From positions 1 through 41,702 of the IMG/VR virus record IMGVR_UViG_3300027968_000009: a DNA stretch of 41,702 bases. One strand, written 5' to 3'. This stretch comes from a virus. Every line of letters starts with the position of its first letter. Within the stretch, counting starts at the first letter, position 1. Below, in pieces: positions 23,862 to 38,381 of the stretch. The notes beneath the pieces were generated by a model, which searched no databases, had not been told where the DNA came from, and worked only from the letters and a program-made list of their open reading frames with translations. Position numbers and translations under genes: made by a program.

Positions 23862-25715
23862 CTACGATGTGACAATGCCCGTGAGACAGCCAACGCCGCC
23901 GAGGAATTCGTTGCGTAGCGTCTCGTTGGCGAACGCGGCATAACTCCACTGTGTCATGTGGCTCTGGTCAGGCGGATACTCTCTTGCCCACAGTTCCTTG
24001 TTGTAGCGCACGGAAAGCGGTGGGCCGTCCATCTCTGCGACGGTAAAGGGCAGGGTGAGCGAGAGCGCGATGATCGTGCCTTGCGTCAAGTACGGCACCA
24101 TAATCACATCCATGAGGCGGCCCGTGGTCTGGTTGACCCAGCCCGTTGCGCGCCCGCCGCCCACAAGGTCAGAAAGTCCGCCCTGGTTTGGCGAGGTATT
24201 CACGCGGAAGTTGGTCGCGTTCATGATGATGTTGGTCAGCGCCTTGTGGTCGCGCACGCCAACGAGCAGGCACTCAGGGTTGGCATGCGCGTTGAAGTAC
24301 ATCGCCTCCAACCAGCCATCGATATCGCTCTTTGCCAGCGCGCCGCCGATGTCTGCCACCCGCTTCACCACTGCGACCTCGCCACCTTCACCGACACTGG
24401 AAAGCGAACCGGCGTTGAGGTAGGTCATGCTCTGCAACCCATCAAAGATCAACGCCTGATTGGCTGGCGTGCCACCACCGCCGGAGGTTGCCACCACCGC
24501 CGTATTGCCCGCGCTCACCACACTGCTGTACGCTGTGCCGGAGGTGACAAGCGCGCCGGTCATGGTCACGTTCATGTAGCCCGTGCTGACGCCGCCGGGG
24601 TCATCCAATGCGTGGGAACCGGTCAGGCTGGGATTGGTGTTGTTGACAAACGCTGTTGCCGATTGCAGCCACATCGCACTGTTGGCAGGCTGGGTGCTAC
24701 CAGTGCCGATGTAGACGTTGTACGTCCAGCCACTTCCTTGCGCGCCGCCCGCACCGGAGCCGCCGGTGTAGTTGTTCGGGATGCGCATGATGTTGAACGA
24801 AATGGTCTGCGACGAACCGCCGCCAGTGACGGCAATCGAGAGCGCGGCGGGCGAACTGTTGCTGTAGGGCGAGATCGACCAGGCCAGCGTTTCCCCGTTG
24901 TAGTTTTTCGCTGTGACGAGAATCCAGAGCGTGTTGTTGGAGAGCGCGCCCCCGGTCGCCGCTGTCGCGCCGCCGTTGGGAGGAGGCGGACTCCACATAT
25001 TTTGCGCGCCGTTCAAGTACCAGACCTCTTGCCCGACCATGAGCGTTGGCGCGAGTTTGGCCGCGATCTTGGCGCGCACCGCCGGGTCAAACATGCGACC
25101 GTAAATCTCTGCCTCGTCAGTCACCACGTCCTGACGCGCAATCTGGCGCAGGAGGTTCTGCTTGTCTACCCAGACGTATTGCTGCTTCTGGATACTGCCG
25201 CCCTGGTTCAAGACGAAGCCGGTCACATCTGGACCATTGCCGTTGAAGACGGAGGTAATGGCGCGCCAGTGCTCCACGTCGATGCCGACGCTGGGAAAGC
25301 GCGGCAGCATGTTTTTGACGGGCGTGTCAAAGGGCTGCACGAATTTGGCGAGTGGCTCCAGGTAGTAGCCGGTCCAGTCGCTGTTTGCGCCAACGTACTG
25401 CTGGTCGCGGTTCAGGTCGCCGCCGAGCAGGCTGGTGATGGTATCCGTGCCGATACTACGCTGGTAGCGGTTGAGGTAGCTTTCGGGGGCGCGTTTCAAG
25501 TAGCGACCGACAAACTCATCGGTCATCTGTCCGCCCGAATCGAAGGCCACGCCGCCTTTGGCACGCGCCATCATGAGCGCCTGCCGCCGCAGCACGTCAT
25601 GGTCGCCGCCCAGCGAATTGTCGATGACGCCCGCGACTTCTTTGCCGGTGTCACCTTCGCTGATCTGCGCGCCAGGGGGAAGCTGGGCTTTGATGGTATC
25701 TTGTGTTACTGGCAT
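23862..25715 (-). CDS. Major capsid protein with an inserted Ig-like domain
   Basis: A 617-aa protein in the exact place of the HK97-fold capsid protein, after the protease. N-terminal part: VLRRQALMMARAKGGVAFDS, a helical arm, then AKFVQPFDTPVKNMLPRFPS. The C-terminal part (EAMYFNAHANPECLLVGVRD to WAREYPPDQSHMTQWSYAAF) carries the usual capsid ending. Between about residues 240 and 415 lies a Gly/Thr/Asn-rich insertion (LWILVTAKNYNGETLAW) of fibronectin/Ig pattern, which explains the unusual length (300-400 aa is common). The insertion may project from the capsid surface. It begins 3 nt after the protease stop. Confidence 0.8.
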   Translation of the reverse strand: MPVTQDTIKAQLPPGAQISEGDTGKEVAGVIDNSLGGDHDVLRRQALMMARAKGGVAFDSGGQMTDEFVGRYLKRAPESYLNRYQRSIGTDTITSLLGGDLNRDQQYVGANSDWTGYYLEPLAKFVQPFDTPVKNMLPRFPSVGIDVEHWRAITSVFNGNGPDVTGFVLNQGGSIQKQQYVWVDKQNLLRQIARQDVVTDEAEIYGRMFDPAVRAKIAAKLAPTLMVGQEVWYLNGAQNMWSPPPPNGGATAATGGALSNNTLWILVTAKNYNGETLAWSISPYSNSSPAALSIAVTGGGSSQTISFNIMRIPNNYTGGSGAGGAQGSGWTYNVYIGTGSTQPANSAMWLQSATAFVNNTNPSLTGSHALDDPGGVSTGYMNVTMTGALVTSGTAYSSVVSAGNTAVVATSGGGGTPANQALIFDGLQSMTYLNAGSLSSVGEGGEVAVVKRVADIGGALAKSDIDGWLEAMYFNAHANPECLLVGVRDHKALTNIIMNATNFRVNTSPNQGGLSDLVGGGRATGWVNQTTGRLMDVIMVPYLTQGTIIALSLTLPFTVAEMDGPPLSVRYNKELWAREYPPDQSHMTQWSYAAFANETLRNEFLGGVGCLTGIVTS

Positions 25716-25718
25716 GGG

Positions 25719-27500
25719 TTATAATCCTCCACGCTGCGCGAGCAGTCCCGCAGCCAGCGCGTCTACTTGTCGTTCCTGTGTGTCAAGTTGGCCGCTCGCG
25801 CTTGCCTCGGCTATGGCCTTGTAGACCGCCGAACCGGTATAACGCTGGGCCTGGTAGGGGTCGGTCGGCAGACGCTTTTGCGCCTCGCCGGGGTGAGTAC
25901 CTGCGTGCTGGATCGGCGCGCCAGGGACGGGCGTTTTCGCAATCCGCTCGATCTGCTCTTTTACCACGGACAATTCCGTGCGTACTTCAGCAAAGGTCGT
26001 GTCGTTTGCGCTGTTCGCGGCTTCCACTGCGCGAGTGATCGCACCGGTGATGATGGTTTCGAGATTTCCCGTGGGGGTACTTCTTGCAAGCGTGCCTGCG
26101 ATGCCCTGCAGGCGGGCATAGACGGCGGCGAGTTGCTGGGTAACGACGCGCTCCACAATGCCAGTGAGAACGCGCTCAGTGTCACTGTCGCCGTCAGAGA
26201 GCGAGCTGGCGTCGCCGTCCGTGTCACCGAACGCGCCCCCGAACGCATCGATGTCGCCGTCGTTATCGGGGTCCATTTGTTTGAGTGCTGCCTGACAATC
26301 CGCGCATCCAGCATCGGCACAGTTTTGCATCTGCGATTTGGCAGCCATGAGGGTATGGCCGATACTCTCATGGAGTTTGTTCTTCGTGGCCGCGCTGATC
26401 GATTTGCCAGCACGTTCAAGCGGTTGCGGTTCAGGTTCTGGCGCGCTTTCCGGTTCAGGCTCTTCCGTAACGTCTGTCACAAAGCCATCTGCTCTCACGA
26501 TCTGGATATCACAGCCAGGACAGGCGGGGTTATCCACGAGCGACAACTCAGCGACCGTGTAGCGCGGCAGGTAGGGATACTGTTTGCCGTTGTACTCTTT
26601 TTTCGGCCACCTGCGCGGGTCAGTGCCATACTCAGGGTCAGGAATGATGGATGCGCTGTAGCCCGTGAGGACATTATCCTCGACTTTGAGCCACGTGTCT
26701 TGCGCGCCGCGACTGATGCGCGAGCCAACGTAAATCGCGCGTTCCTGGGGATCAGGCAAGACTTCTAGCCGCCTGCCGACCGCTTTTTTTGGGTCGTGCT
26801 GCTCGCGAATGTTGCCACGCCACTGTGTCCACGCCTCTGGACAGTAGCCAAAGATCGTGCCATAGCTGTCAGGCACTTCCGCCGTCGCCTGTCCCCACAC
26901 TTCACGTTTCGTCGCATCGATGCGGGTGAGCGGCAAGGACATGGCAAAGCGGTCGCTCTGGGTAATCACACCAGCAGAGGCCGCGCGCGCTTCGTCATGG
27001 CTGTGGTGGTGGTCAGCATCATTGTCGTGCGAGTGTTCGTGTTCGTGGTTCTCATCGTTGCCTTGTGCTCCAAAAGCCGGATGGCTATGGGTGTGCGTAC
27101 CGCTCATCGGCTCGTGATTGCCAGTGGCGCGGTCTATCGTGATGTGAGAGGGCATAGCTCTATCCTTTGTGTTGTCGTCTTGCCAGCTATCAGGAAGTTT
27201 CCAGCCGTTGGCCTTCGCTTTGCGTTTGAGGCAGGCTTTCACGGCAGCGGGATCGTCGGCATGGCCGATAAGGTGGACGGCATTGTTGAAGTCGGATTCA
27301 TTCTGAACCGGAAAACTTTTATGGGGGCCACAGAACGCCGATTCGTCCATGCCCTCGCGCTCTTTGTCGGAGTAGTAGCGGCGGGCGATGGTTTCGAGGT
27401 CAGGAGATAGACCGGCGGTCAGCAGACGCTCTAACTCCGTCTGCAAAGAGGATGTGATCTCTTCAGGAGAAAGAATTTTATAGGTTGTGTTCGCAGGCAT
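25719..27500 (-). CDS. Prohead protease with scaffold-like tail
   Basis: A 593-aa protein. Residues 1-120 form a module common next to phage proteases (FCGPHKSFPVQNESDFNNAV). A His-rich metal-binding-like stretch follows (HTHSHPAF, HEHEHSHDNDADHHHSH). The middle is the protease proper: FGYCPEAWTQWRGNIREQHD, GSRISRGAQDTWLKVEDNVL, TGYSASIIPDPEYG and YTVAELSLVDNPACPGCDIQ, the S78/HK97-type ending. The acidic C-terminal half with long helices may act as scaffold. The ATG at 27500 is preferred over GTG at 27512, because GAGGTGG lies 8 nt before it and the GTG is inside the leader hairpin. Confidence 0.8.
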   Translation of the reverse strand: MPANTTYKILSPEEITSSLQTELERLLTAGLSPDLETIARRYYSDKEREGMDESAFCGPHKSFPVQNESDFNNAVHLIGHADDPAAVKACLKRKAKANGWKLPDSWQDDNTKDRAMPSHITIDRATGNHEPMSGTHTHSHPAFGAQGNDENHEHEHSHDNDADHHHSHDEARAASAGVITQSDRFAMSLPLTRIDATKREVWGQATAEVPDSYGTIFGYCPEAWTQWRGNIREQHDPKKAVGRRLEVLPDPQERAIYVGSRISRGAQDTWLKVEDNVLTGYSASIIPDPEYGTDPRRWPKKEYNGKQYPYLPRYTVAELSLVDNPACPGCDIQIVRADGFVTDVTEEPEPESAPEPEPQPLERAGKSISAATKNKLHESIGHTLMAAKSQMQNCADAGCADCQAALKQMDPDNDGDIDAFGGAFGDTDGDASSLSDGDSDTERVLTGIVERVVTQQLAAVYARLQGIAGTLARSTPTGNLETIITGAITRAVEAANSANDTTFAEVRTELSVVKEQIERIAKTPVPGAPIQHAGTHPGEAQKRLPTDPYQAQRYTGSAVYKAIAEASASGQLDTQERQVDALAAGLLAQRGGL

Positions 27501-27534
27501 AGAAAAAGCCACCTCGCTAATCTACGAGATGGCT
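27501..27534 (-). terminator. Leader terminator (candidate attenuator) before the head operon
   Basis: Minus-strand stem AGCCATCTCG (27534-27525) with CGAGGTGGCT (27516-27507), one mismatch, followed by TTTTTCT and then ATG. The descending arm contains GAGGTGG, the Shine-Dalgarno of the protease gene, so the same fold could both end transcription and mask translation. The promoter lies upstream at 27577-27585. Confidence 0.75.
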
Positions 27535-27576
27535 TAATGCCTCTATGGGCGAAAGCTCTAAAACGTTCTTACGCTG

Positions 27577-27585
27577 ATTATATCA
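27577..27585 (-). promoter_or_regulatory. Extended -10 promoter for the head operon
   Basis: TGATATAAT on the minus strand: perfect TATAAT with TGn. No good -35 is seen. It lies about 80 nt before the protease start, upstream of the leader terminator. Confidence 0.6.
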
Positions 27586-27639
27586 CGTTCTCGGATTATG
27601 TTCTAGTGCTCGCTCTTTCCTTCTCTTAACAAGGGAGCG

Positions 27640-27963
27640 TCAAGCCAATGGAACGGAATATGCTCGGATATAGTCATCAGGTGGCGTATCCAGCGGTGGG
27701 CAATGATCGAGCAGTTCACTACGACATGGTAGCCACATCTCTTCTATTGTCCAGACTAGCACCACCTCACCATTGACTAACTCGACTTCTCCCTGATGCA
27801 CGCGCCAGTAGTCATCCTCGTGGCAGGTATACCCGATATGCTCCTTCCAATGCCAGCAGTTGATATCTTCCCACGTCAGCGGTCGGGGTAAGGGCTTGCG
27901 GTACTTTGCTCGCAACTCTTCCAATCGGCGCGCGCGCTCTTCTGAAAGCCGTTGCTCGCTCAT
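27640..27963 (-). CDS. Hypothetical protein, Trp-rich
   Basis: A 107-aa protein. The N-terminus is a charged helix (RLSEERARRLEELRAKYRKP). The rest has many Trp (LTWEDINCWHWKEHIGYT, LVWTIEEMWLPCRSELL). No known family. It ends the small-gene cluster before the head operon promoter and overlaps the YopX gene by ATGA. Confidence 0.7.
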   Translation of the reverse strand: MSEQRLSEERARRLEELRAKYRKPLPRPLTWEDINCWHWKEHIGYTCHEDDYWRVHQGEVELVNGEVVLVWTIEEMWLPCRSELLDHCPPLDTPPDDYIRAYSVPLA

Positions 27964-28400
27964 TCCTCCCTCACTTTCTGCTCTAGCAACTCAGGATGCT
28001 CATAGATATTGCCGATGACCTCTACATACGGCCACATGCGCTTAGGTGGCCTTCCATTGTTGTTGCTGTGATACCAACCGCCTTCCTCATCCCACCAGAA
28101 TACTTCTCCGATGGCATTAGTAAAGTCGCCTGTCATATCGTGAGGATGATTGATACAAACGATATCTCCCTCATAGATTTCCTTGCCGTGAGTATCCTTG
28201 AGACCGGTACACCAGAGAGGTATATAGCGATGGTCAACATTCCAACCGACAACCTCGCCATCTCTGAAGGAGTCAGCATCTACCACTATCGGTAAGCCGT
28301 GTAACCCAATAGCCAGCACCTCTTTACTATTCAGTGCTTCATCAGCATAGATCATTCGTCGCTCTTGCTTATCCCAGAACCGACACCTTCGCTCGTTCAT
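27960..28400 (-). CDS. YopX-family phage protein (second copy)
   Basis: A 146-aa YopX-type protein: RRCRFWDKQERRMIYADEAL, then LWCTGLKDTHGKEIYEGDIV and VIGNIYEHPELLEQKV. Its core and ending parallel the plus-strand YopX at 5190-5561 (TGLKDKAGKAIYEGDIV, VIGNIYETPELLE), but the middle is longer and different. It ends with GAGCAGAAAGTGAGGGAGGA, the same end/RBS block used in the plus-strand cassette. Function unknown. Confidence 0.82.
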   Translation of the reverse strand: MNERRCRFWDKQERRMIYADEALNSKEVLAIGLHGLPIVVDADSFRDGEVVGWNVDHRYIPLWCTGLKDTHGKEIYEGDIVCINHPHDMTGDFTNAIGEVFWWDEEGGWYHSNNNGRPPKRMWPYVEVIGNIYEHPELLEQKVREE

Positions 28401-28600
28401 ACCAACACCTTCATATATGGTGCAAGTGCTCGCTTCGCTTCCTCTTGCCAGAGATAGACGGGCAAGAACTCGGTTTCAAACATCCAATAGAGTTCGCCGC
28501 TTTGATAGAGCTTGAATAAATAGATCAAGATAGGATTATCGATTGCGATCTCATAACCAAGTGTGCGCAGGTGAGACTGAAATAGCTCCTGTTCGTTCAT
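28397..28600 (-). CDS. Small hypothetical protein
   Basis: A 67-aa protein with aromatic helices (HLRTLGYEIAIDNPILIYLF, LYWMFETEFLPVYLW). ATGA overlaps on both sides link it to its neighbours. No domain recognised. Confidence 0.68.
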   Translation of the reverse strand: MNEQELFQSHLRTLGYEIAIDNPILIYLFKLYQSGELYWMFETEFLPVYLWQEEAKRALAPYMKVLV

Positions 28601-28830
28601 ATGTCCTCTGTTTCAGGATAGTACAAGAGCATATCGTCATACTCAGGAGCGGGCGTGTATGGCTCTATCGGCTCTCGCTTACCAGTTAATGCTATCTGTG
28701 AAAGTGCTATTGCTACTTCTTGCACGGTATAGCCAAGATCAAGTAGCAACAGTTCTGTCCTGATTGATGGAAAATATGGTTCTACCTCACGGCTTTGAGG
28801 CGGTATAATGCGCGGCGGCACAAGTGCCAT
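28597..28830 (-). CDS. Small hypothetical protein
   Basis: A 77-aa protein (MALVPPRIIPPQSREVEPYF) with a helix ELLLLDLGYTVQEVAIALSQ that resembles a small helix-turn-helix-like segment and a Pro/acidic end. Start supported by AAGGAAGAGC. No family assigned. Confidence 0.66.
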   Translation of the reverse strand: MALVPPRIIPPQSREVEPYFPSIRTELLLLDLGYTVQEVAIALSQIALTGKREPIEPYTPAPEYDDMLLYYPETEDI

Positions 28831-28857
28831 GTTATTGCTCTTCCTTCCGTAACTCTA

Positions 28858-29172
28858 TTATCCCGACCAGAATGTTTTCATATCAATGCCTTCCACCTGG
28901 CTAAAGTTGTTGAAGATAAATTCCACCATCGCCAGATAGAGCCTGTCCTGTTCGTCACCGCTCCAGTCATAGCTAATCTGCGCGTCGAAACTATATTCCT
29001 TGTCACGCTCGTTGAAGTACACACCGGGCGCAAAGGACTTTTCTGGTAGCTTTTCTTGCAGGAAGTTCTCAAACCGCTCTTCGATTTCTTTGATGGTGCC
29101 ACGCGGGTTGTACCCGTTGCACATATAGCCTTCTATTTGCTTTTTGACATAGATTCCGATGACGAGTCCCAT
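28858..29172 (-). CDS. Hypothetical protein
   Basis: A 104-aa protein; the middle contains RFENFLQEKLPEKSFAPGVY and DAQISYDWSGDEQDRLYLAM. A mixed alpha/beta fold is likely. It overlaps the upstream zinc-ribbon gene by 40 nt in a different frame, more than its neighbours do, but has its own site (GGTGAGG). Function unknown. Confidence 0.68.
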   Translation of the reverse strand: MGLVIGIYVKKQIEGYMCNGYNPRGTIKEIEERFENFLQEKLPEKSFAPGVYFNERDKEYSFDAQISYDWSGDEQDRLYLAMVEFIFNNFSQVEGIDMKTFWSG

Positions 29173-29360
29173 GCCTCACCTTTTACCAGTTCTGTATACC
29201 GCTTCAATATCTCCGCCCATTCTACCACATGTTCCTGCTTACAGTGCCGACACTTGTAGGCAATGCCTGCCGCCACAAAAAAGAACACGGCATGTCCATC
29301 AATCGGACAGCGCTCTTTGACCGGTTGGCTATTCTGTTGTGGCGTGGGCGACTCAATCAT
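29133..29360 (-). CDS. Small zinc-ribbon protein
   Basis: A 75-aa protein; the true start is at 29360, overlapping the exonuclease stop (ATGA) with AAAGGAG upstream. It holds CPIDGHAVFFFVAAGIAYKC and CRHCKQEHVVEW, a two-knuckle zinc ribbon similar in layout to Com-like proteins. It could bind RNA, but no target is evident. Confidence 0.68.
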   Translation of the reverse strand: MIESPTPQQNSQPVKERCPIDGHAVFFFVAAGIAYKCRHCKQEHVVEWAEILKRYTELVKGEAWDSSSESMSKSK

Positions 29361-29902
29361 ACTGACTCCTTTGTCAGCATCTCCCATATCTGCTTGATAT
29401 AGCGTGCATCGGCAAGCGCGTTGTGTGCGTTTTCTTGCTCAGGAAGCCAATCATCAGGAATACCCCGCTCGTCGAGAAGCTGCTGAAGGTCTCGCATATA
29501 GTGCGGAAGAGATGCGGGAACATCCATCATCGTGCCAAAGAGTTGGCAGAGAGCTACAAAGTCATACGCACAACACCAGCCGATGAGTTCAGGATAGCCA
29601 TATTTCTCGATATCCATGAATGCCAGGATTTCTTGCTTTATGGCCTCACGGGTACGCATCATACATCTCTTAGAGCGACATTTGCCCGTTGGCTGGCCTT
29701 CATGGTTTATCTTATGACCGCAACACGGACAAAGCGGAAGCGGCTTAATGACATGCTCTTTTACCCAGTCGCTTGCCTTGCTCTCATCAAACTCAATTGA
29801 TTGCAGATACAGCTCACGCCCGTCTTCAGCAACAATACCAATACTTATCAAATCTATCGTCTTGCCGTCGTCAATAAACTCTTCGTCCAGGAAATATTTC
29901 AC
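29357..29902 (-). CDS. DEDDh 3'-5' exonuclease (Rv2179c-like)
   Basis: A 181-aa nuclease. The start is the GTG at 29902 behind GTAGGAGGGC, overlapping the MuF stop as GTGA. Catalytic residues: D6 and E8 in FLDEEF, D114 in AYDFVAL, H160 and D165 in HNALADARY, as in the DEDDh class (oligoribonuclease/RNase T-like, Rv2179c type). A Cys-rich insertion between motifs (C58, C60, C61, C75, C80) probably binds zinc, which is unusual for this family. It lies between morphogenesis genes, so its substrate in infection is not obvious. Confidence 0.82.
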   Translation of the reverse strand: MKYFLDEEFIDDGKTIDLISIGIVAEDGRELYLQSIEFDESKASDWVKEHVIKPLPLCPCCGHKINHEGQPTGKCRSKRCMMRTREAIKQEILAFMDIEKYGYPELIGWCCAYDFVALCQLFGTMMDVPASLPHYMRDLQQLLDERGIPDDWLPEQENAHNALADARYIKQIWEMLTKESV

Positions 29903-30495
29903 GATTGCCCTCCTACTGCCTGAATATGGCACCGACAACGATTATGGAACGGTGCGTTGGTATGTCCGCTTGGAAATGTTGAGCCTATCGGAATCGGCCC
30001 GGCCTCTGCATTCGTCACACAGAGCGCACAGGCATCTGGCTCGTTCACCGCCTCGATCTGAGCAACACCGGAAGCTTGCAAAGCATCCAGCACGGTTTCC
30101 TCGATCACTGTCTGGATTTCTGTCGTGGCATAGGTATCCGCTACCTGCTCAGCAACACTTTCCATGACCGCTTCGATATCGTCGCTACTCGCATCATCAC
30201 CCAGCGCCTCAACCTGCTCGCTGAAGAGGCTCGTCGCCCAATTAATAGCGCGGCTCATCAGGTTTTGTGCCGTCGTGACAACCGACTTGAGCGCGTTGCC
30301 TAACCCGCGTGACTGCTGGCCGAGTTGCTGTTGTGCAAAACCTTGCCCTAAGCGTTGCGCCTGCTCAAGATACTGCACAATGGCCGCGCTCACCACCTCA
30401 CGGTCAACCTGGCTGTAGTCCAGTTTCGTGCCATGCCTGCTACCCGAAAGTACCAGCTTCTTGAGCGTGCGCGCTAGCTCCTGCTCACAGGTCAA
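29899..30495 (-). CDS. MuF-type minor head protein
   Basis: A 198-aa protein: an N-terminal helical part (RTLKKLVLSGSRHG, AAIVQYLEQAQRLGQGFA) and an acidic helix region, then the MuF-type C-terminus NEPDACALCVTNAEAGP, GSTFPSGHTNAPFHN and RCRCHI. Such proteins bind the portal and are packed into the head. It overlaps the portal gene by ATGA. A related Cys motif also occurs inside the portal fusion, so the module is present twice. Confidence 0.75.
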   Translation of the reverse strand: MTCEQELARTLKKLVLSGSRHGTKLDYSQVDREVVSAAIVQYLEQAQRLGQGFAQQQLGQQSRGLGNALKSVVTTAQNLMSRAINWATSLFSEQVEALGDDASSDDIEAVMESVAEQVADTYATTEIQTVIEETVLDALQASGVAQIEAVNEPDACALCVTNAEAGPIPIGSTFPSGHTNAPFHNRCRCHIQAVGGQS

Positions 30496-33302
30496 TTGCT
30501 CTGGCGGAGGTTGCCGCCACTGTCGGCGGCTGGCACGAAAAAACGTGCGTCTCCTGCTCGCGCACGCTCAAAGACGGCTCGCACCTCGTCCGCTGTGGTC
30601 GCTGTCGTCAGTCCCTGCTCAATCATGCGCCGTTCCCTGGTGGGGATAACCTCGGAGGCGAAGGGCCGGAACGGGCGCGCCGCTTTGATATCGTCAATGG
30701 CACGGGCACGCCAACGCTTGATGTCGGCACGAGCTAACGCTGATAATTGCTCATCAGATTGCCGTTTTGCTTCACGTTTCGCATCCCAATACTCAGGATA
30801 CTGCTCATCACCCATTTTGAACGGAAATCGCTGGTCGCCAACGCACAACCAGACCGTATCAAGCGCGAGCGGAAGCGGTGGCACTTCGTCAACCGGCATC
30901 GGCTTGTCAGCATCGACATAGGCCAGCGTGATATGTGGCGTGTAGCCGTGATTGTCAGCGACGAAATAGCCCGCCGCCTCAACTGCCTGTACCAACTTCG
31001 TGCGAAATTCAGCAAGGCCCGGAACATCGACTAAAGCAATTACTGGCGTCTCGTCCGTCTCTGCCGGGAAGAAGCGACCAAGACCACCAACAACCCCGGA
31101 AAGCGGCTTTGCTTCAGAGGAAATCAGCGCGATCGCGTCTTTGATCTTTCCTGGCGAGGTATGCGGTCTCAGCAGATCATCGGTCGAATCATCCTCCATA
31201 TCGCCAAGATAGGCCAGCGTGATATGAAGATCGCCTGCCGGTTCACCGCCGGGAATAGCCAACTTTTTCGCCGTTGGCGTGTCCAGCAGGAAGGCCAGCA
31301 TCATGCCTGTCTGCGGCCCATCACCTTGCGTAGCGCGTTCTAGTGTGATCGGCTCCAACTTGCAATCACAGCCATCATGACCACCTGGCCTGGTTGCCCC
31401 GCTCGGAAACGCTTCACCGGCAGCGCGGACATGGCCATCGTTGGCTACACACGCATCACAGGTACAGTTGCCTTTGCGCCAGATGCTCATTGCATTGGCG
31501 TTAGCATGGCCTTCAAATCCTTCTTTGCCCGTTCCACTATTGAAAGCGGCGTCGGTGTCAGCGCCTGCCGCGCGATTTTGCGCTTTTCCCGACCCTTGAG
31601 ATTTGCCAGTTTGCGTACCGCTCGCACTCGCTGTCGTCCTGTTGCCCACGACCTTGCCAGTGCTGCTTCCGCTTTTCGGATTCGCCTTTGGTTGAGCCTC
31701 TTCATCGTCGTCTTCTCCTGTTGTTGCAACATTTTGTTGTGGATTTTGCGCGGTCATCTGGAAACCGGCGATCTGCGCCTGTCGCTGCGCATCCATCATT
31801 TCCTCATCGTCCAGCCAGACCGGCCCATCTTTGGTGAGCACCATGCGTCCGAGGTGCTTCCCGTCCGGCTCTTCTGGCAACTTTGCGAGCTTTGCCGCGT
31901 TGGAGAGGCCGAGTATGCCCGCGCTGGTGTACATGGTGAGCGTGGCGGCTTTCGCCTGTTCGTCTTCCTGTTCCTCGAAGCCCCCGAACTGCAGATCGAA
32001 GAGTTCACCGTGCAGTTCGGACGGGAAATCGTTATTCATCACGCCGGTGAGCATGCCCGCATAGGTCATAGCTATCGGGCCAATCGTGCGCCGGTAGAGG
32101 ACGTTTTGCTGTGAGTCGCCACTGCTCTTGTGGATATCGTCGGTAAAGCTGATATCCCCCATGCTCATGCCATAGCAGCCCGTTGCAATATTGAGTAGCC
32201 ACATGTCGAAGTCGGTCATGATCTCGCCGTTGTCGACCTGGATGATCTTGACGCCGGGCATGGTGAACTTCATTTGCGCCTGCCGGGCTGTGTTGCCTGC
32301 CATAAGCGCGTTCCACTGTTGCTCAAAGCTGTCGATCTGGTCCGGCGTCCAGTTGGTAGATTCCGGTACCTCTGCGATGGCCTTTGGCATGTTGCCTTCC
32401 GTAAACATCGCAAGGTCACGCTTTTTCTTGCGCAGCGCCTGGTTGACCTCCATGATGATGCGTTCGACGCGAGACTGACCATAGGGTGTATCGGCAGCCG
32501 GTGACTCCTGGTAGTGCAACATCATATCGGTGGTATAGAGCATGCCAGGAATGCCCCAGGGGTATTGCTGATAGGCATAAGGCGGGTCATCATCGGGCGC
32601 TGGTGTGTCTCCCCAATCGTTCAAGATAGGTTTCATCGAGTCGCCGGCGATGATATGCAGGCCGAGGAGTTGGCCGCCACGTGTGCGGTGCTTGTAGACG
32701 TACAACTCGTCGATCTGAGTCTGTTCTCTGAGGGCCTTGCGTAGCCACGTATGGATATCTTTGCCGCCGGTAGAACTGCCGTCGTCAGCGGTGTGCTTGC
32801 CATTAGGTTTCTCAAACCAGCGTTTGAAGTAGCTAATCTCCTCCTGGAAATCTTTCTCTTCGAGGCCCTGTGCAACGTATTCAGGTTTGAGTTTGATCTG
32901 CACATTCATTCTGGGAACCATGTCAAACCAGGCGCGTTCGCAGAGCGTGATGCCAGAATACATCTTGGCCAGCATACGCAACTGTTGGAAGCCGGGGATA
33001 TCGGGGTTGCCCTGCGTGCGGTCGGGGACGTAGGTGTTGACCGCAATCGGGAAAGGATAGCGCACGGGGATGCCGCCGGGATCGACGCCGGGCTGTGGCG
33101 GCAGTGGTTGACCGGGGGTAAAGAGCGGTATCTGATTGACAGGGATGCCCGCCTTTGAGCCGTAGAATGTTTGCCCCAAAATTCCTTGTGCCTGGCCCGG
33201 CATGACGTACATGGTTGCGCCGCCGGGTAGCACGATAGGCACGGCGGCACGATCAATCGTCGGTTGTGGTCGGTTACGTTGTTTAGTGTGGCGTCGGCTC
33301 AT
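30492..33302 (-). CDS. Portal protein fused to MuF-like and 2H phosphoesterase domains
   Basis: A 936-aa protein. Residues about 1-480 are the portal, the dodecameric DNA gate (TQGNPDIPGFQQLRMLAKMY, DLAMFTEGNMPKAIAEVPES, DISFTDDIHKSSGDSQQNVL). After a low-complexity linker comes a MuF-like zinc-type segment at about 600-650 (CTCDACVANDGH, FPSGATRPGGHDGCDCKLEP). Residues about 667-830 form a 2H phosphoesterase with both HxT motifs, H693-T695 in LHITLAYLG and H790-T792 in YTPHITLAYV, 97 residues apart as expected. A C-terminal helical tail (ADIKRWRARAIDDIKAARPF) resembles phage head proteins. Usual portals have 400-550 aa. The 2H domain may cut cyclic nucleotides or RNA ends. Confidence 0.85.
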   Translation of the reverse strand: MSRRHTKQRNRPQPTIDRAAVPIVLPGGATMYVMPGQAQGILGQTFYGSKAGIPVNQIPLFTPGQPLPPQPGVDPGGIPVRYPFPIAVNTYVPDRTQGNPDIPGFQQLRMLAKMYSGITLCERAWFDMVPRMNVQIKLKPEYVAQGLEEKDFQEEISYFKRWFEKPNGKHTADDGSSTGGKDIHTWLRKALREQTQIDELYVYKHRTRGGQLLGLHIIAGDSMKPILNDWGDTPAPDDDPPYAYQQYPWGIPGMLYTTDMMLHYQESPAADTPYGQSRVERIIMEVNQALRKKKRDLAMFTEGNMPKAIAEVPESTNWTPDQIDSFEQQWNALMAGNTARQAQMKFTMPGVKIIQVDNGEIMTDFDMWLLNIATGCYGMSMGDISFTDDIHKSSGDSQQNVLYRRTIGPIAMTYAGMLTGVMNNDFPSELHGELFDLQFGGFEEQEDEQAKAATLTMYTSAGILGLSNAAKLAKLPEEPDGKHLGRMVLTKDGPVWLDDEEMMDAQRQAQIAGFQMTAQNPQQNVATTGEDDDEEAQPKANPKSGSSTGKVVGNRTTASASGTQTGKSQGSGKAQNRAAGADTDAAFNSGTGKEGFEGHANANAMSIWRKGNCTCDACVANDGHVRAAGEAFPSGATRPGGHDGCDCKLEPITLERATQGDGPQTGMMLAFLLDTPTAKKLAIPGGEPAGDLHITLAYLGDMEDDSTDDLLRPHTSPGKIKDAIALISSEAKPLSGVVGGLGRFFPAETDETPVIALVDVPGLAEFRTKLVQAVEAAGYFVADNHGYTPHITLAYVDADKPMPVDEVPPLPLALDTVWLCVGDQRFPFKMGDEQYPEYWDAKREAKRQSDEQLSALARADIKRWRARAIDDIKAARPFRPFASEVIPTRERRMIEQGLTTATTADEVRAVFERARAGDARFFVPAADSGGNLRQSN

Positions 33303-33519
33303 GGGCGTTTTCCTCAGAACTATTCAGGACTTCCATCCTGATGCGCAAATACTGGCCTTTTTCGAGTTTGCGAATCGTCTTTGCAAACTGTTCAAATGTT
33401 GCGTCTCCCAGCATGGACTCACTCAGCAATGAACCATACTCCGCTTTCACGAGGACATCACCGCCTTCTAGCCAGTCAACAAGACTGTAGCATCGTTCAT
33501 TGCTGTACTCACTACTCAC
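33283..33519 (-). CDS. Small hypothetical protein
   Basis: A 78-aa protein (MSSEYSNERCYSLVDWLEGG) with a helix ATFEQFAKTIRKLEKGQYLR. It overlaps the portal start by 20 nt and the next upstream gene by ATGA. No family recognised; the position between terminase and portal is a usual site for small accessory genes. Confidence 0.65.
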   Translation of the reverse strand: MSSEYSNERCYSLVDWLEGGDVLVKAEYGSLLSESMLGDATFEQFAKTIRKLEKGQYLRIRMEVLNSSEENAHEPTPH

Positions 33520-33683
33520 GTCGTTTGCTCCTTCTTCTGCTCAGGATGGCCCGGACAGAGCAGAAATATCCCGCCCTCTTTCCCAGCTTGCATCTGCTCT
33601 ACAATGGCGCGACCTAAATCCTTGATGCGCCCGCATATCGCACAGAGATTGCTCTCTTGTGGCTGCTCTTGTGTATCGCTCAC
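33516..33683 (-). CDS. Small zinc-finger-like protein
   Basis: A 55-aa protein beginning at a GTG (33683) with AAGGAG upstream; a longer frame reaching back into the terminase gene has no support. CAICGRIKDLG and a later LCPGHPEQK supply C-x2-C and C-x2-H pairs, so a treble-clef-like zinc site is plausible. It starts 10 nt after the terminase stop. Confidence 0.62.
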   Translation of the reverse strand: MSDTQEQPQESNLCAICGRIKDLGRAIVEQMQAGKEGGIFLLCPGHPEQKKEQTT

Positions 33684-33693
33684 GCATTTCTCC

Positions 33694-35106
33694 TTATTGC
33701 CAGTATGGGCGTCGCGAGGGCGTCTCAATGGCACGCTGTTTCTGCTCGGCTTCACGTTGTTGTTGCCGCTCGGCACGCTCTCTAATAGCGGCGATATAGT
33801 TGCTCGCTGACGGGCCATCGACGGCCATTGCAGCATAGCGCCAGCAGTCCATCGCATGGTTGTTGAGGTCCACTGGTACCTCTTTGATCGGCTTGCCGTC
33901 CTGCGCTTTGGGCCAGACATACTCTAAAATCTCACCTTCTGAGCAAAACGGCTTGTGTGCATTGACCAGCGTCTCATCGCGCTCAGGAAGCGAAAACTCG
34001 TAGACGTAGAGGCGCGGGCGACCATCACCGGCAATCTGCAAACGCGACTGCACGGCGCTGATGCCAGGCGCAATATCGTTTGTTGCCTCTATCGCGTTCA
34101 AGCCGTTGCTCCTGAATTTGGTGATGTAGGCAGGCTCTGCCGGGTCGCAATGAAACGCGCCAACGCCGAACGTCGCTTTCATCTCCTTGCCTCGTGCCAC
34201 CCACCAGTCATCCACCTTTTGCGTCATATAGATCTCGCGTATGAGGTACATGCGGCCATCGCCATCGACAAACCAGACCAGGATGACGCCCGGATTGGTA
34301 TAGCCCCAGTCCACTGAGGCGAGTACCTGCTTGACCGCCGGGCCGGGCTTCCCGTCTTCGGTGAGTATCCCCCAGGCGAGCAACTGCTTTTTGCTGGCCT
34401 TGTGCAATGCGCTATCCCACTGCTCATAGACCATGCCCTCAGCGGCTGCCCACTGACCGAGGTAGTAACGCAGGTAGCGCACGCCAGTAAGCGCTTTCAG
34501 ACGTGCGAGGCGCTCAGGTGTGATACTGGGATTATCCACATGCCTGCTTTCCAACATTTTGGTGAGTCCGAGGTCACAACGTTGTTTGAGCCAGTGCGTC
34601 GGCGGCCCTGGGTTGCAGTCGCCAATCAACTGCTGATAGGGCATAGCCCCATAGCGCAGGCGCATACTCAGCGTTTCCCAGTCATTCTCGGAGAGTTCGG
34701 TCGCCTCTTGCGGATAGATCATGTCCCACTCGGAGGACAGCACTTTTTCGGCGTTATCCATGCCGCCAACGGCAATAATGGAGCCATTGGGATACTCATA
34801 CTGCTGATCAACAGTGCTGAAGTGGATGAGCGAGCCGAGCCAGCCCTGTGGCAGCACCTTCTTTTCGTAGGTGACCATTGCTGTTTGACCCAGGCTCTTG
34901 CGTGTCTTGCGCACCATGAGCAGGCGTGAATTCGGATACTTATCAGCGCAGTAGTGTAGCTTTTCGAGAATACTCCTCGACTTGCCGGTATCTGCCGGGC
35001 CACACAAAAGCAACTCAGGACGCCGCGACCGCCACGCGATGCGTGATGCGCCAAACGGTTGATAAGGCGCGCGCTCTTTCGGACGCCTGAGAACAGCTTT
35101 CGTCAT
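33694..35106 (-). CDS. Terminase large subunit
   Basis: A 470-aa packaging motor. The ATPase domain has Walker A GPADTGKS (K42, S43), Walker B near WDMIYPQEATEL (Asp-Met-Ile-Tyr-Pro-Gln-Glu), and the coupling motif GDCNPGPPTHWLK. The C-terminal RNase-H-like nuclease begins VDWGYTNPGVILVWFV with a metal-binding Asp, with further acidic residues toward VDLNNHAMDCWRYA. Lengths and motif order agree with the family. It overlaps the small subunit by ATGA. A perfect DnaA-like 9-mer (34532-34540) lies inside the gene. Confidence 0.92.
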   Translation of the reverse strand: MTKAVLRRPKERAPYQPFGASRIAWRSRRPELLLCGPADTGKSRSILEKLHYCADKYPNSRLLMVRKTRKSLGQTAMVTYEKKVLPQGWLGSLIHFSTVDQQYEYPNGSIIAVGGMDNAEKVLSSEWDMIYPQEATELSENDWETLSMRLRYGAMPYQQLIGDCNPGPPTHWLKQRCDLGLTKMLESRHVDNPSITPERLARLKALTGVRYLRYYLGQWAAAEGMVYEQWDSALHKASKKQLLAWGILTEDGKPGPAVKQVLASVDWGYTNPGVILVWFVDGDGRMYLIREIYMTQKVDDWWVARGKEMKATFGVGAFHCDPAEPAYITKFRSNGLNAIEATNDIAPGISAVQSRLQIAGDGRPRLYVYEFSLPERDETLVNAHKPFCSEGEILEYVWPKAQDGKPIKEVPVDLNNHAMDCWRYAAMAVDGPSASNYIAAIRERAERQQQREAEQKQRAIETPSRRPYWQ

Positions 35107-35648
35107 TCTTCCTCCACGCCATCGTCTTCAGGGACATTGACATACTCTTTGGGGAGAAAGTTGTTGATTGTCATGCCCTTCTCGCGGTATTCCGGCATAC
35201 GTTTCTTGGCATAGAATATGAGGAGGGTGTCGCTATACTTGCGTATCATCATCATAGGGCCGCGCTTGTAGATCGGCTTACCCTTGCTATCAAGTTTTTG
35301 GTTTCCCTCTTCATCCAGGTCAGGCTCATACTCGTAGACTGGCTGGCCCTGACTGATAATCGGCTCCACAACCCCCTCTATCGCACGCCGTCTGATTTCA
35401 GCTTCGATGCGAGCATTGGCGGCTTTATCGGCAATGTTGAAGGCGAACAGAAATTGTTCATCATGCTCTTGCCAGTAGTAGACAAGCGTTCGATCTATCT
35501 CTGCCTGCTCAGATGCTTGCAAAATGTTGGCTGTGCGTTCGTAAGCGTCAAGGAACTGCGCTTGCGCTCTGATGCGCTGCGCTGCTGTCATGCGCTGGCC
35601 CTGTCGTCTCTTTTTTTGAAGTGTCGAAGTGTAGAACTGCTCGCTCAT
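35103..35648 (-). CDS. Terminase small subunit
   Basis: A 181-aa DNA-recognition subunit. An N-terminal HTH-type helical region (RIRAQAQFLDAYERTANILQ, AEIDRTLVYYWQEHDEQF) is followed by a beta part and the very typical RKYSDTLLIFYAKKRMPEYR, shared by many phage small terminases. It precedes and overlaps the large subunit by ATGA. Confidence 0.86.
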   Translation of the reverse strand: MSEQFYTSTLQKKRRQGQRMTAAQRIRAQAQFLDAYERTANILQASEQAEIDRTLVYYWQEHDEQFLFAFNIADKAANARIEAEIRRRAIEGVVEPIISQGQPVYEYEPDLDEEGNQKLDSKGKPIYKRGPMMMIRKYSDTLLIFYAKKRMPEYREKGMTINNFLPKEYVNVPEDDGVEEE

Positions 35649-35694
35649 ATCCTGCTCTCGCCTTTTGCAAAATCAGCCCAAAAATATGCGTATT

Positions 35695-35994
35695 TCAATT
35701 CGTGGCCGGTTCTGTCTGCTCTTCCATCTCATCCACATACCTGATCTCGTACTGGCCTTTGAGATCCAGCAGGTGATGCAGCTCGCCCATCATCGTGAAG
35801 ACACTGCCATTATCGAGCGTCACCAGACCATTCGGATAGTGCGTCCCCCACGCCTCGTGCTTGTCATGCTTGCGGGTGTCTCTCGTCTTCGTCTTGCTGT
35901 TATCCCAAATCGCTTTGAAGAAACGCGGTTCCTCGCGTCGCTTCAGCAGTGTGTTGATCGTGGCCACAGCAGGTGTGTTGGCTTGTGTCATCAT
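35695..35994 (-). CDS. Small hypothetical protein
   Basis: A 99-aa protein, basic in the first half (RREEPRFFKAIWDNSKTKTR) and acidic in the second (YEIRYVDEMEEQTEP). No known family. It joins the upstream gene by ATGA and precedes the terminase genes. Confidence 0.68.
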   Translation of the reverse strand: MMTQANTPAVATINTLLKRREEPRFFKAIWDNSKTKTRDTRKHDKHEAWGTHYPNGLVTLDNGSVFTMMGELHHLLDLKGQYEIRYVDEMEEQTEPATN

Positions 35995-36407
35995 GGTTGT
36001 TTCTCCAGCCAGCTAAATTGCGCATTGTGTCCATCGGTATTTCCCCAACGCCGGAATCCATGCACATGGTCATCGGGATAACTGCTTGGCTGGAAACCGG
36101 GGAAGAAGGAACGGGCAGCGGTGACAATGCACCAGTCCTTATGCTTGAGGTTGTCAGGAAAATCAGGGGAATACACGATATGCTCCTCAGAGCCGCAACA
36201 ATCGCAGGTGACATTGCAGGTCATCGACGAGTAGCGTAACAGCAGTTTCCCATCGGCAATCTTGTGTAAGAATGCTGCTTGTGTATCATGGGCAGATTTC
36301 TCAATCAGGATGTAAGGCGAGTCTTCTGCCCGAATCACCATCGTCGTCATGAGACCTGCATTGACTGTTTGTGATTGCTCACTCAGCGCAAATTGTATAT
36401 CAGTCAT
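35991..36407 (-). CDS. Hypothetical Cys-rich protein
   Basis: A 138-aa protein beginning MTDIQFALSEQSQTV. The middle CNVTCDCCGSEEH with a later DWC suggests a zinc site. It overlaps the genes on both sides by ATGA, so it is translated as part of a coupled chain of small genes. Family not recognised. Confidence 0.68.
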   Translation of the reverse strand: MTDIQFALSEQSQTVNAGLMTTMVIRAEDSPYILIEKSAHDTQAAFLHKIADGKLLLRYSSMTCNVTCDCCGSEEHIVYSPDFPDNLKHKDWCIVTAARSFFPGFQPSSYPDDHVHGFRRWGNTDGHNAQFSWLEKQP

Positions 36408-36544
36408 CGAATAATTCCTCCGTGGCGATGCTCGCTATCGCTGTGCTGCACCGGATCGCCAGTCAGCGCCTTGTAGAGCAGCGGCAATGAGAGTAGCAGC
36501 GCCAGGGCCAGTGTCACCGCGCAACTGAACAGAGCGTATTTCAT
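36404..36544 (-). CDS. Tiny membrane protein
   Basis: A 46-aa protein (MKYALFSCAVTLALALLLSL) consisting of one N-terminal membrane helix or signal anchor and a short His-rich tail (SDSEHRHGG). ATGA overlaps on both sides and a conserved place within the chain make it credible despite its size. Function unknown. Confidence 0.62.
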   Translation of the reverse strand: MKYALFSCAVTLALALLLSLPLLYKALTGDPVQHSDSEHRHGGIIR

Positions 36545-36723
36545 GGGCGCGCCTCTTTCTGTAGCCACTGTTTCAATGCTTCTACGTCCCGATCAAATTG
36601 CTCATCATCACGCTGGCTGGCATCGAAAAGCCGGATATAGGTACGGTACACATGCGAACCGTCCAGTAGAGCATAAAGCACCTGGCGCATCGCTTCTGAG
36701 AGCGGTGGCATCTGTTCGCTCAT
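36541..36723 (-). CDS. Small hypothetical protein
   Basis: A 60-aa helical protein (MSEQMPPLSEAMRQVLYALL, DRDVEALKQWLQKEARP). Coupled by ATGA to both neighbours. No domain recognised. Confidence 0.65.
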   Translation of the reverse strand: MSEQMPPLSEAMRQVLYALLDGSHVYRTYIRLFDASQRDDEQFDRDVEALKQWLQKEARP

Positions 36724-36908
36724 ACGTTTTTTCTCTCCTGTCGCAGTCGCTCGCTGGCAAATGGCATGAGCAGGCCCAGCTCCTCTGCTTCCAGCCGTGC
36801 CTGTAGTCGCCTGTCATAGAGCGGGCCATAGCGTGCCACAGCGCGAGAGCAGAGAAAGCCAGTAGCCCCGGTCAGCAGCGCGAGTAGTTTTCGTTTGAGT
36901 CGAGTCAC
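36720..36908 (-). CDS. Small membrane-associated protein
   Basis: A 62-aa protein from the GTG at 36908, which has GGAGG just upstream; a longer frame from 36953 would begin inside the preceding terminator. Basic start (VTRLKRKLLALLTGATGFLC) with a short hydrophobic segment, then charged helices. No family recognised. Confidence 0.6.
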   Translation of the reverse strand: MTRLKRKLLALLTGATGFLCSRAVARYGPLYDRRLQARLEAEELGLLMPFASERLRQERKNV

Positions 36909-36925
36909 GTCGCCTCCAAAATGAC

Positions 36926-36958
36926 AAAAAGCTGAGTATCCACAAAGGGACACTCAGC
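36926..36958 (-). terminator. Intrinsic terminator after the 73-aa gene
   Basis: Minus-strand stem GCTGAGTGTCC with GGATACTCAGC (one mismatch), then TTTTTGTC. It lies 38 nt downstream of the gene ending at 36997 and just before the start at 36908, so genes further left depend on readthrough or another promoter. Confidence 0.75.
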
Positions 36959-36996
36959 GAAGGCGTGCAGTGTCATAGGTCTATTGGCTATAAGAA

Positions 36997-37218
36997 TCAG
37001 GCGATATCAGGTAAACGGCTCATTAAATAGTCATCGGCACATTTAAAACGCTTGAGTTTGCCAGCCTCGATAAGGATATAAATCTCTCCATATCCCCCGG
37101 TCTCATTGTCTCGCGAATCGTTCAAGAATTTCTGGACGCGCAGGGCCATCTTTGCCACCTCTTGTTCGACTTCAATGGTGACACGCGACGGCGGCGTAGA
37201 AGCGGTATCCTGTTTCAC
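36997..37218 (-). CDS. Small hypothetical protein in its own transcription unit
   Basis: A 73-aa protein starting at GTG (37218) behind GAGGGGGTAACACAAT. The N-terminal half is charged and helical (VTIEVEQEVAKMALRVQKFL); the rest (GEIYILIEAGKLKRFKCADD) is beta-like. It has a promoter, a leader terminator and its own 3' terminator, an unusual amount of control for such a small gene, suggesting a regulator or immunity-type role. No family known. Confidence 0.7.
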   Translation of the reverse strand: MKQDTASTPPSRVTIEVEQEVAKMALRVQKFLNDSRDNETGGYGEIYILIEAGKLKRFKCADDYLMSRLPDIA

Positions 37219-37240
37219 ATTGTGTTACCCCCTCATAATA

Positions 37241-37269
37241 GCGAAAAGCAGCCCTCGCGAAAGGACTGC
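37241..37269 (-). terminator. Leader terminator (candidate attenuator) before the 73-aa gene
   Basis: Minus-strand stem GCAGTCCT (37269-37262) with AGGGCTGC (37255-37248), loop 6 nt, followed by TTTTCGC. It lies between the promoter at 37298-37326 and the start at 37218. Confidence 0.7.
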
Positions 37270-37297
37270 CAGTAAAGACGTACTCAGTTCTGAGAGT

Positions 37298-37326
37298 AGT
37301 ATAGCCCATTTTATAATCGCTTGCAA
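37298..37326 (-). promoter_or_regulatory. Sigma70-type promoter
   Basis: Minus strand: -35 TTGCAA (37326-37321), spacer exactly 17 nt, -10 TATACT (37303-37298). Transcripts would start near 37291 and meet the leader terminator. Confidence 0.72.
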
Positions 37327-37531
37327 TGAGCGTCTCTTAAGCAAAGAGGCGTGGAGCGCGACCACTGGAGAGTGTCAAAAGTAGCGCACAGTGTTAGCTG
37401 GAATTGACACAGAGGAGCCGCGTCACCTGGAAGGGTTGGACGCGGCTCGTGTGCCATGATTATGCGCTCATGACGGCAATGGGAGCTGGGCACTTACCAT
37501 ACTCCGCCGGGCCGACCCGGCTGGTATCAAA

Positions 37532-37685
37532 GCACGAGGCAAGGATTTGCACCTTGCATAGCCTAATACTTCCATTCGGCCTTCGTCTAGCTCCTTCGGC
37601 CCCACACTTTTGCGGCTGTAAGCACCATCATAGCTCGTAGTTACCTTCTGCTAGCTAAGTCGTCTACCTATTCCGCCACTCGTGC
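37532..37685 (-). tRNA. Oversized tRNA-Leu-like element
   Basis: Minus strand. A seven-bp acceptor stem GCACGAG/CTCGTGC, then TGGCGGAATAGGTAGACG, an almost exact class II (Leu) D-arm, and at the 3' end a T-arm GCAAGG-TGCAAAT-CCTTGC directly joined to the acceptor. About 100 nt separate D-arm and T-arm, against roughly 45-50 in normal tRNA-Leu. TTAGC and GCTAG can form an anticodon-type stem enclosing about 60 nt. Deviations: a 6-bp T stem and G for U in the T loop. It may be a tRNA with an insertion, a tRNA-like regulatory RNA or a decayed tRNA. No anticodon can be assigned. Confidence 0.5.
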
Positions 37686-37688
37686 TTT

Positions 37689-37732
37689 CTGAAACGTTGG
37701 CCCGTCACTCGGCGTTGGGGCCAACGTTTCAG
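37689..37732 (-). other. 15-bp perfect hairpin next to the tRNA-like element
   Basis: CTGAAACGTTGGCCC pairs perfectly with its complement around 14 nt. On the minus strand it ends 3 nt before the tRNA-like acceptor stem. It could be a 5' processing signal or part of one structured transcript. Confidence 0.7.
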
Positions 37733-37749
37733 AGGATGAAACCGAATCT

Positions 37750-37776
37750 ATTCTACCCCACTCTGTCAACTTTCAA
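37750..37776 (-). promoter_or_regulatory. Possible promoter upstream of the tRNA-like element
   Basis: Minus strand TTGAAA (37776-37771), 15-nt spacer, TAGAAT (37755-37750). The spacer is shorter than ideal. It would transcribe the hairpin and the tRNA-like element. Confidence 0.35.
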
Positions 37777-37931
37777 CTCAGCAATGAGAGAATGTCACAA
37801 TTCTTTCATAAATCTCCATTTTTCTATCGCTGCTATAGACAAAACCCAACTATTCTGCTAAGATAAGCCGGCGCGAGGGGGTAACAATCTGCGCAATAAT
37901 ACTGATAAGGTGGCTGCGTGACGATGCGAAA

Positions 37932-38381
37932 CTACTGTTCTGGATAATCGTTTTCCACCCATATTCCCCATGCCATCCCATAGCAGAAGAGTATCACCGC
38001 GCCGACGACAAGCAACACGAAGGCCGTGCCGCCATAGGGCAAGAAATCGAGGCTATGCGAGATCGCCAGCACGAGCAGGGTGAGCGGTATGGTGAATGTG
38101 CCTGCCATTGCCATGAGACAGGCGGCGATGACGCAGCGCCCGAAGACGGAAAGCGATTGCCAGCGAATAGGGCGCAAAGAAACGTCAGTGTGTTTCGGGT
38201 CAGGCGTGCCACTCCATGCACCAGGCCAGGCTTCTCTTATTGTTCCCTCTGATAAAATCACCGTCGTATTATCCTCTGCCGGAATCTCGATGGGAACGCC
38301 AGGATAGAGCATTGCCTCAGTAAACCAGGGCGGCAGACCCATATGTTCTTTCAGTTCCTCAAATGTATGCGGATTCTCCAT
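37932..38381 (-). CDS. Membrane protein, unknown
   Basis: A 149-aa protein. The first 75 residues are soluble (ELKEHMGLPPWFTEAMLYPG, LSEGTIREAWPGAWSGTPDP), followed by two membrane helices (VIAACLMAMAGTFTIPLTLL; AFVLLVVGAVILFCYGMAWG). The start is preceded by the GAGGGGGTAAC block. It may be an anchored accessory protein of the FtsK-like module to the right or a superinfection protein; nothing in the sequence decides. Confidence 0.7.
   Translation of the reverse strand: MENPHTFEELKEHMGLPPWFTEAMLYPGVPIEIPAEDNTTVILSEGTIREAWPGAWSGTPDPKHTDVSLRPIRWQSLSVFGRCVIAACLMAMAGTFTIPLTLLVLAISHSLDFLPYGGTAFVLLVVGAVILFCYGMAWGIWVENDYPEQ

Follow-up and report, generated by a model that had tools for sequence, protein, structure and literature searches.

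Portal genes as probable double-coded cargo cassettes: a 2H phosphoesterase module and a nested +1-frame gene in a viral contig

Portal genes of the phage group considered here are very probably double-coded cargo cassettes, in which the linker that bears an exchangeable enzyme also encodes a small protein under selection, read in the +1 frame and provided with its own ribosome-binding site. A basic family of this second protein is found in six portal-2H genes, and a second family lies in portals without a 2H domain; the hidden protein may act as a partner either of the payload or of DNA packaging. The window from which the analysis started, a viral contig of 41.7 kb (41,702 nucleotides) in IMG/VR, looks temperate in that it carries an integrase or DNA-invertase-type recombinase (19-840).

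The fusion of a 2H phosphoesterase to a portal, and the idea that such an enzyme is delivered by the virion against host defence, are already published (Iyer et al. 2017). In the available portions of Iyer et al. 2017 (PMC5512222) and 2022 (PMC9503650), 2H domains are fused to MuF and portal domains in polyvalent proteins that are expected to be packaged, a role as RNase or degrader of nucleotide signals is proposed, and release by cleavage and entry with the genome are suggested. The gene described here is of the same polyvalent type, with its 2H domain fused to a portal within a packaging locus. What those portions provide is architectures; exchange of the module between unrelated portals, a comparison of empty, NUDIX-bearing and 2H-bearing cargo slots, and the overlapping gene are new here.

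Anatomy of the portal-2H gene and its neighbourhood

The packaging genes run along the minus strand from a terminase small subunit (35103..35648; phrog_4044, E 3e-27) through the terminase large subunit (33694..35106; PF04466 and phrog_2) and a 78-aa ORF to the portal-2H ORF, which has an ATG start and encodes 936 aa (30492..33302; identified by ORF call, Pfam, PHROG and Foldseek). It is adjoined by a MuF-like minor head protein (29899..30495, minus; VG15 and phrog_4728 matches), directly after which comes an Rv2179c-like 3'-5' exonuclease (29357..29938, minus; PF16473 and phrog_2259); further on lies a putative head maturation protease (25719..27512, minus; phrog_9427, E 2e-20), a candidate for the enzyme that would clip the portal linker. 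Functional coupling of the 2H domain with the exonuclease was considered and rejected, since such a gene lies near only 1 of 77 viral 2H loci and the association is therefore not recurrent. Elsewhere in the window, a 2014-aa ORF (7021-13065, minus) has a weak PHROG match only (phrog_20852, annotated unknown).

The portal core (residues 102-517; 31752..32999, minus) is ordered in the full-length model and matches phrog_2662 (E 6e-35, residues 156-556), while the Pfam Phage_portal profile scores 36.8 bits, slightly below its cut-off of 39.1. Solved portals rank first when the full-length model is searched with Foldseek (phage 812, E 3e-14; HK97, 1e-9), and the portal fold together with the terminase genes immediately upstream places the protein among HK97-type portals. 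The core is followed by an acidic and polar linker (residues 518-611; 31470..31751, minus) that is predicted to be disordered, with pLDDT below 50 in the full-length model. Next comes a MuF-type Cys/His motif (residues 604-651; 31350..31493, minus; 85% identity to orthologue L003), whose cluster of C613, C615, C618, H642, C645 and C647 resembles the end of MuF proteins; in L009 and L010 a similar motif is located after the 2H domain. The 2H phosphoesterase domain (residues 664-832; 30807..31313, minus), supported by an AlphaFold2 model and by PF13563 (37.4 bits against a cut-off of 27, residues 691-802), occupies the position of an exchangeable cargo module, and behind it a conserved portal tail (residues 853-936, RWR...EVRAVF; 30492..30746, minus) is 77% identical to that of L003.

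The initial annotation had read this ORF as a portal, a MuF-like Cys segment and a complete 2H domain in one chain. The portal, the 2H domain and the Cys/His cluster are all present, but the MuF-like element is confined to that Cys/His motif, as Pfam gives no PF04233 match to the MuF helical domain in the ORF. The annotation had also raised the prospect of an assembly artefact joining two genes. An artefact or frameshift is rejected and the ORF is genuine, because a second viral contig, L002, matches window positions 24495-37934 (13,440 bp) with 100% identity and orthologue L003 carries the same architecture in one 899-aa ORF with 76% overall identity.

The nested gene in the linker

On sequence grounds, and independently of any reading of the cargo, the linker DNA is supported as coding in its +1 frame for another protein, small and basic. 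The predicted gene (31487..31705, minus) starts with ATG at 31705, encodes 72 aa with a pI of 12.0, and is preceded by a Shine-Dalgarno-like AGGAG 9 nt upstream (31715..31719, minus). The case for it draws on codon conservation, homologues and dN/dS. In the linker 30 of 32 synonymous codons are kept, as against 224 of 406 in the portal (p = 7e-6), and the main-frame dN/dS climbs to about 0.7-2. Homologues in the +1 frame were found before the 2H domain in L003 and L007 and after it in L008, L096 and L106, and all five have an ATG preceded by a Shine-Dalgarno-like AGGAG or GGAG. Within the overlap, dN/dS is 0.11-0.75 for the +1 frame, a mark of purifying selection, and a near-neutral 0.90-1.20 for the portal frame across the five pairs where both were computable. 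In sliding windows, the frame with the low dN/dS switches from portal to nested exactly at the nested ORF in three independent pairs: the window with L003, L008 with L096, and L181 with L183.

The last of these pairs concerns a second, unrelated-looking peptide. This +1-frame family, of 77-79 aa, lies in the linkers of homologous portals without a 2H domain, at codons 515-593 of the portal ORF in L181, 693-771 in L183 and 513-589 in L180, and at 3001-3231 of L190; in L181 and L183 the nested frame has a dN/dS of 0.34 against 1.37 for the portal frame. A possible third nested +1-frame ORF, with a Shine-Dalgarno sequence and an ATG, was observed at codon 960 of the L176 portal ORF and codon 922 of that of L178, where the codon test is ambiguous.

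A chance open frame is rejected as an explanation of the nested gene on two counts: the dN/dS flip is seen in three pairs, and it is absent from Strzyga and Polewnik, a close pair of isolates in which there is no nested gene and the linker stays under main-frame selection. The pair of Mufasa8 and Sonali is too diverged to serve as a clean control for the flip. Several other candidates were discarded. Nested-frame similarities in L011 and L015, L013 and L017, and L018 and L122 were rejected, the main frame being the conserved frame there, while the candidate in L015 and L153 appears to be a genuine upstream gene into which an over-long ORF call extends. Searches with the nested peptide against phage records (tblastn) and PHROGs gave no significant match, and no overlapping gene within a portal gene was found in the literature searched; a class of overlapping genes inside portal genes thus appears to be unreported.

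Exchange of the 2H module and its possible delivery

Comparison of aligned regions shows, at the level of sequence, that unrelated portals have exchanged the 2H module, which behaves as interchangeable cargo. Between the window and its orthologue L003, identity is 85% in the portal and 77% in the tail but only 53% in the 2H domain; with L004, the 2H domain is 72% identical and the portal just 23%. Nucleotide similarity of the portal gene to the portal genes of L004 and L007 is limited to 31313-30835, which is the 2H region. Approximately unbiased (AU) tests agree with this conflict, as a clade of the window with L003 is rejected for the 2H tree (p = 9.6e-7) and a clade of the window with L004 is rejected for the portal tree (p = 2.6e-6).

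The cargo slot lies between the disordered linker and the conserved tail, and in homologous portals it is empty or holds other domains. L174, with a portal 66% identical to that of the window, is cargo-free, its portal leading directly to the same tail; in the homologous portals of L176-L178 the slot is filled by another, long coiled sequence, and in that of Arthrobacter phage Mufasa8 by a NUDIX domain. The Mufasa8 protein (NC_049478 gp3) likewise places an enzyme after the portal core, but has NUDIX in place of 2H and carries MuF in the same chain. Two further architectures were observed. The portal of L004 (2781-5996), unrelated to that of the window, has DUF305 immediately ahead of its 2H domain, and so holds two cargo-like domains in one portal. 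The portal homologue of L178 (3-3947; 1314 aa) combines the long coiled cargo with a MuF-type Cys motif, and its C-terminal stretch (LYLFLDLDGVFS...) is HAD-phosphatase-like by eye, with no Pfam match.

Relatives were collected by scanning viral contigs and, once, bacterial genomes; in the genome collection only more distant 2H relatives were found, mostly in actinomycete prophages and Bacillus-group loci. The roughly 90 distinct relative ORFs extracted are all larger than a lone 2H domain. Cultured phages also have a 2H domain next to or joined with head genes, among them Arthrobacter phage Salgado (gp18) and Gordonia phages whose head protease-2H is annotated. Among 62 non-redundant relatives the partners are Phage_portal (26), XkdF-type protease (11), S78 prohead protease (8), MuF (7) and Phage_capsid_4 (3), proportions that are not unbiased because the 2H seeds came from portal fusions. 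Single relatives among the 62 carry NUDIX, zeta toxin, histidine phosphatase or ADP-ribosyltransferase domains, and the 2H domain is placed before or after its partner, varying by relative. Partner types are interspersed across the 2H tree: the portal label has to change 7 times, and well-supported branches force at least 3 of those changes. The common denominator of the partners, judging by their predicted identities, is the capsid interior, which fits a packaged cargo.

The reading considered rather likely is that the portal carries a LigT-type 2H domain as interchangeable C-terminal cargo, enclosed in the capsid, later freed or acting while tethered, and probably blunting host defence. Portals form a dodecameric ring through which DNA enters the capsid, and they normally remain in the emptied capsid, so delivery of the 2H domain would need its release. 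From portal anatomy, C-terminal extensions should face the capsid interior; as this is the lumen side, up to 12 enzyme copies enclosed with the DNA of each virion are plausible. Cleavage of the linker, for which the phage's own prohead protease is one possible agent, could free the 2H domain and let it pass into the cell together with the genome; alternatively, it could act while tethered, in the producing cell. A similar delivery has been proposed for the MuF polymorphic toxins of temperate phages (Jamet et al. 2017, PMC5576092), which likewise place variable enzymatic domains on a head protein at the portal; here, however, it is the portal itself that bears the domain, a putative phosphodiesterase rather than a known toxin.

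Should the enzyme act solely in the producing cell, late and on unassembled portals or proheads, it would degrade defence nucleotides or RNA ends with no virion delivery at all. The portal is made in the infected cell before assembly, the cleavage site in the linker is still only putative, and the available part of Iyer et al. 2022 (PMC9503650) suggests that ADP-ribosyltransferases in such contexts might counter immunity directed against the packaging apparatus. A freely acting enzyme, however, would need no fusion, and the fusion of relatives to many capsid-interior proteins is best explained by packaging; this late action is accordingly regarded as unlikely, if the least so of the alternatives.

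Family and substrate of the 2H domain

Both HxT motifs are intact and occur precisely where the initial annotation had placed them. The first, H693-x-T695 (31218..31226, minus), is present in 73 of 73 relatives, and in the second, H790-x-T792 (30927..30935, minus), the histidine is kept in 73 of 73 and the threonine in 70 of 73, the first motif lying within the search seed and the second outside it. The AlphaFold2 model of the isolated domain has the 2H fold at high confidence (mean pLDDT 90.3) and is matched by solved 2H enzymes, so that the two HxT motifs sit within a predicted 2H fold, as in other members of the superfamily. In close pairs the dN/dS of the 2H domain is 0.12-0.33, indicating purifying selection.

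By profile and by predicted fold the domain is LigT-type, nearer to the LigT/ThpR cyclic phosphodiesterases than to Acb1. The family profile search returned first an archaeal LigT-type protein (1vdx, 7e-11) and Deinococcus drCPDase (7e-10), with Acb1 at 0.28. When the 2H model was searched with Foldseek, Escherichia coli LigT ranked first (8e-8) and Acb1 (7t27) 38th (3.5e-4); a phosphodiesterase of phage BCSR5 was also matched. Pfam assigns LigT or LigT_PEase to 52 of the 62 relatives and Acb1 to 1 of 62 (E below 0.001). The RNA 2',3'-cyclic phosphodiesterases of the LigT/ThpR group, which share the fold and the two HxT motifs and give the best profile and structure matches, are nonetheless distant at about 18% identity, and the LigT/ThpR equivalog TIGR02258 scores 28.8 bits, below its cut-off of 65.7; unlike them, the 2H domain here is part of a portal.

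An Acb1-like anti-CBASS nuclease hydrolysing 3'3'-cGAMP or cA3, the function the initial annotation had leaned towards, is improbable in the light of these results. The Acb1 enzymes of T4 and FBB1 (PMC9117128) share the 2H superfamily and the HxT tetrad, the Foldseek matches include both Acb1 and the BCSR5 enzyme, and Pfam weakly matches orthologue L003 to Acb1 (E 0.014). In Acb1, aromatic stacking residues and a C-terminal lid lie over the cyclic nucleotide (PMC9117128). Acb1, however, is a compact protein with that lid, and it is farther than LigT from the 2H domain of the window by sequence and fold; in the portal-2H ORF itself the Acb1 family (PF23474) gives no hit at E up to 0.1. As LigT/ThpR is nearer by both profile and fold, the Acb1-like label is not supported. 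The annotation's recognition of an intact, conserved 2H domain on the C-terminal side of the portal stands, while the module exchange and the linker gene had escaped it.

The LigT-type class says little about the substrate, because 2H enzymes readily switch substrate, with poxvirus and phage examples (PMC11410667). RNA ends or small nucleotide signals might be the substrates of the domain, hydrolysed at 2',3'-cyclic or 2'-5' phosphodiester bonds. We infer an anti-defence role, most likely the weakening of a host defence that works by RNA cleavage or by nucleotide signalling. That the domain instead helps to build or plug the portal, with catalysis irrelevant, is improbable, for although its fusion partner is an essential assembly protein and the partners in relatives are assembly proteins as well, the catalytic tetrad is conserved, dN/dS is low, and close portal homologues are entirely without 2H.

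If the 2H cargo is delivered, its action would precede all phage gene expression and fall at the point where defences based on nucleotide signals or RNA cleavage settle the outcome of infection. Portals with no cargo, with 2H or with NUDIX form a natural series that makes the slot view testable, and a phage's cargo may be an indicator of the defence at work in its hosts. The nested gene indicates that an essential structural gene can harbour, in its linker, another protein that gene finders overlook, and a main-frame dN/dS that goes up while that of another frame goes down offers a search signature for more such genes.
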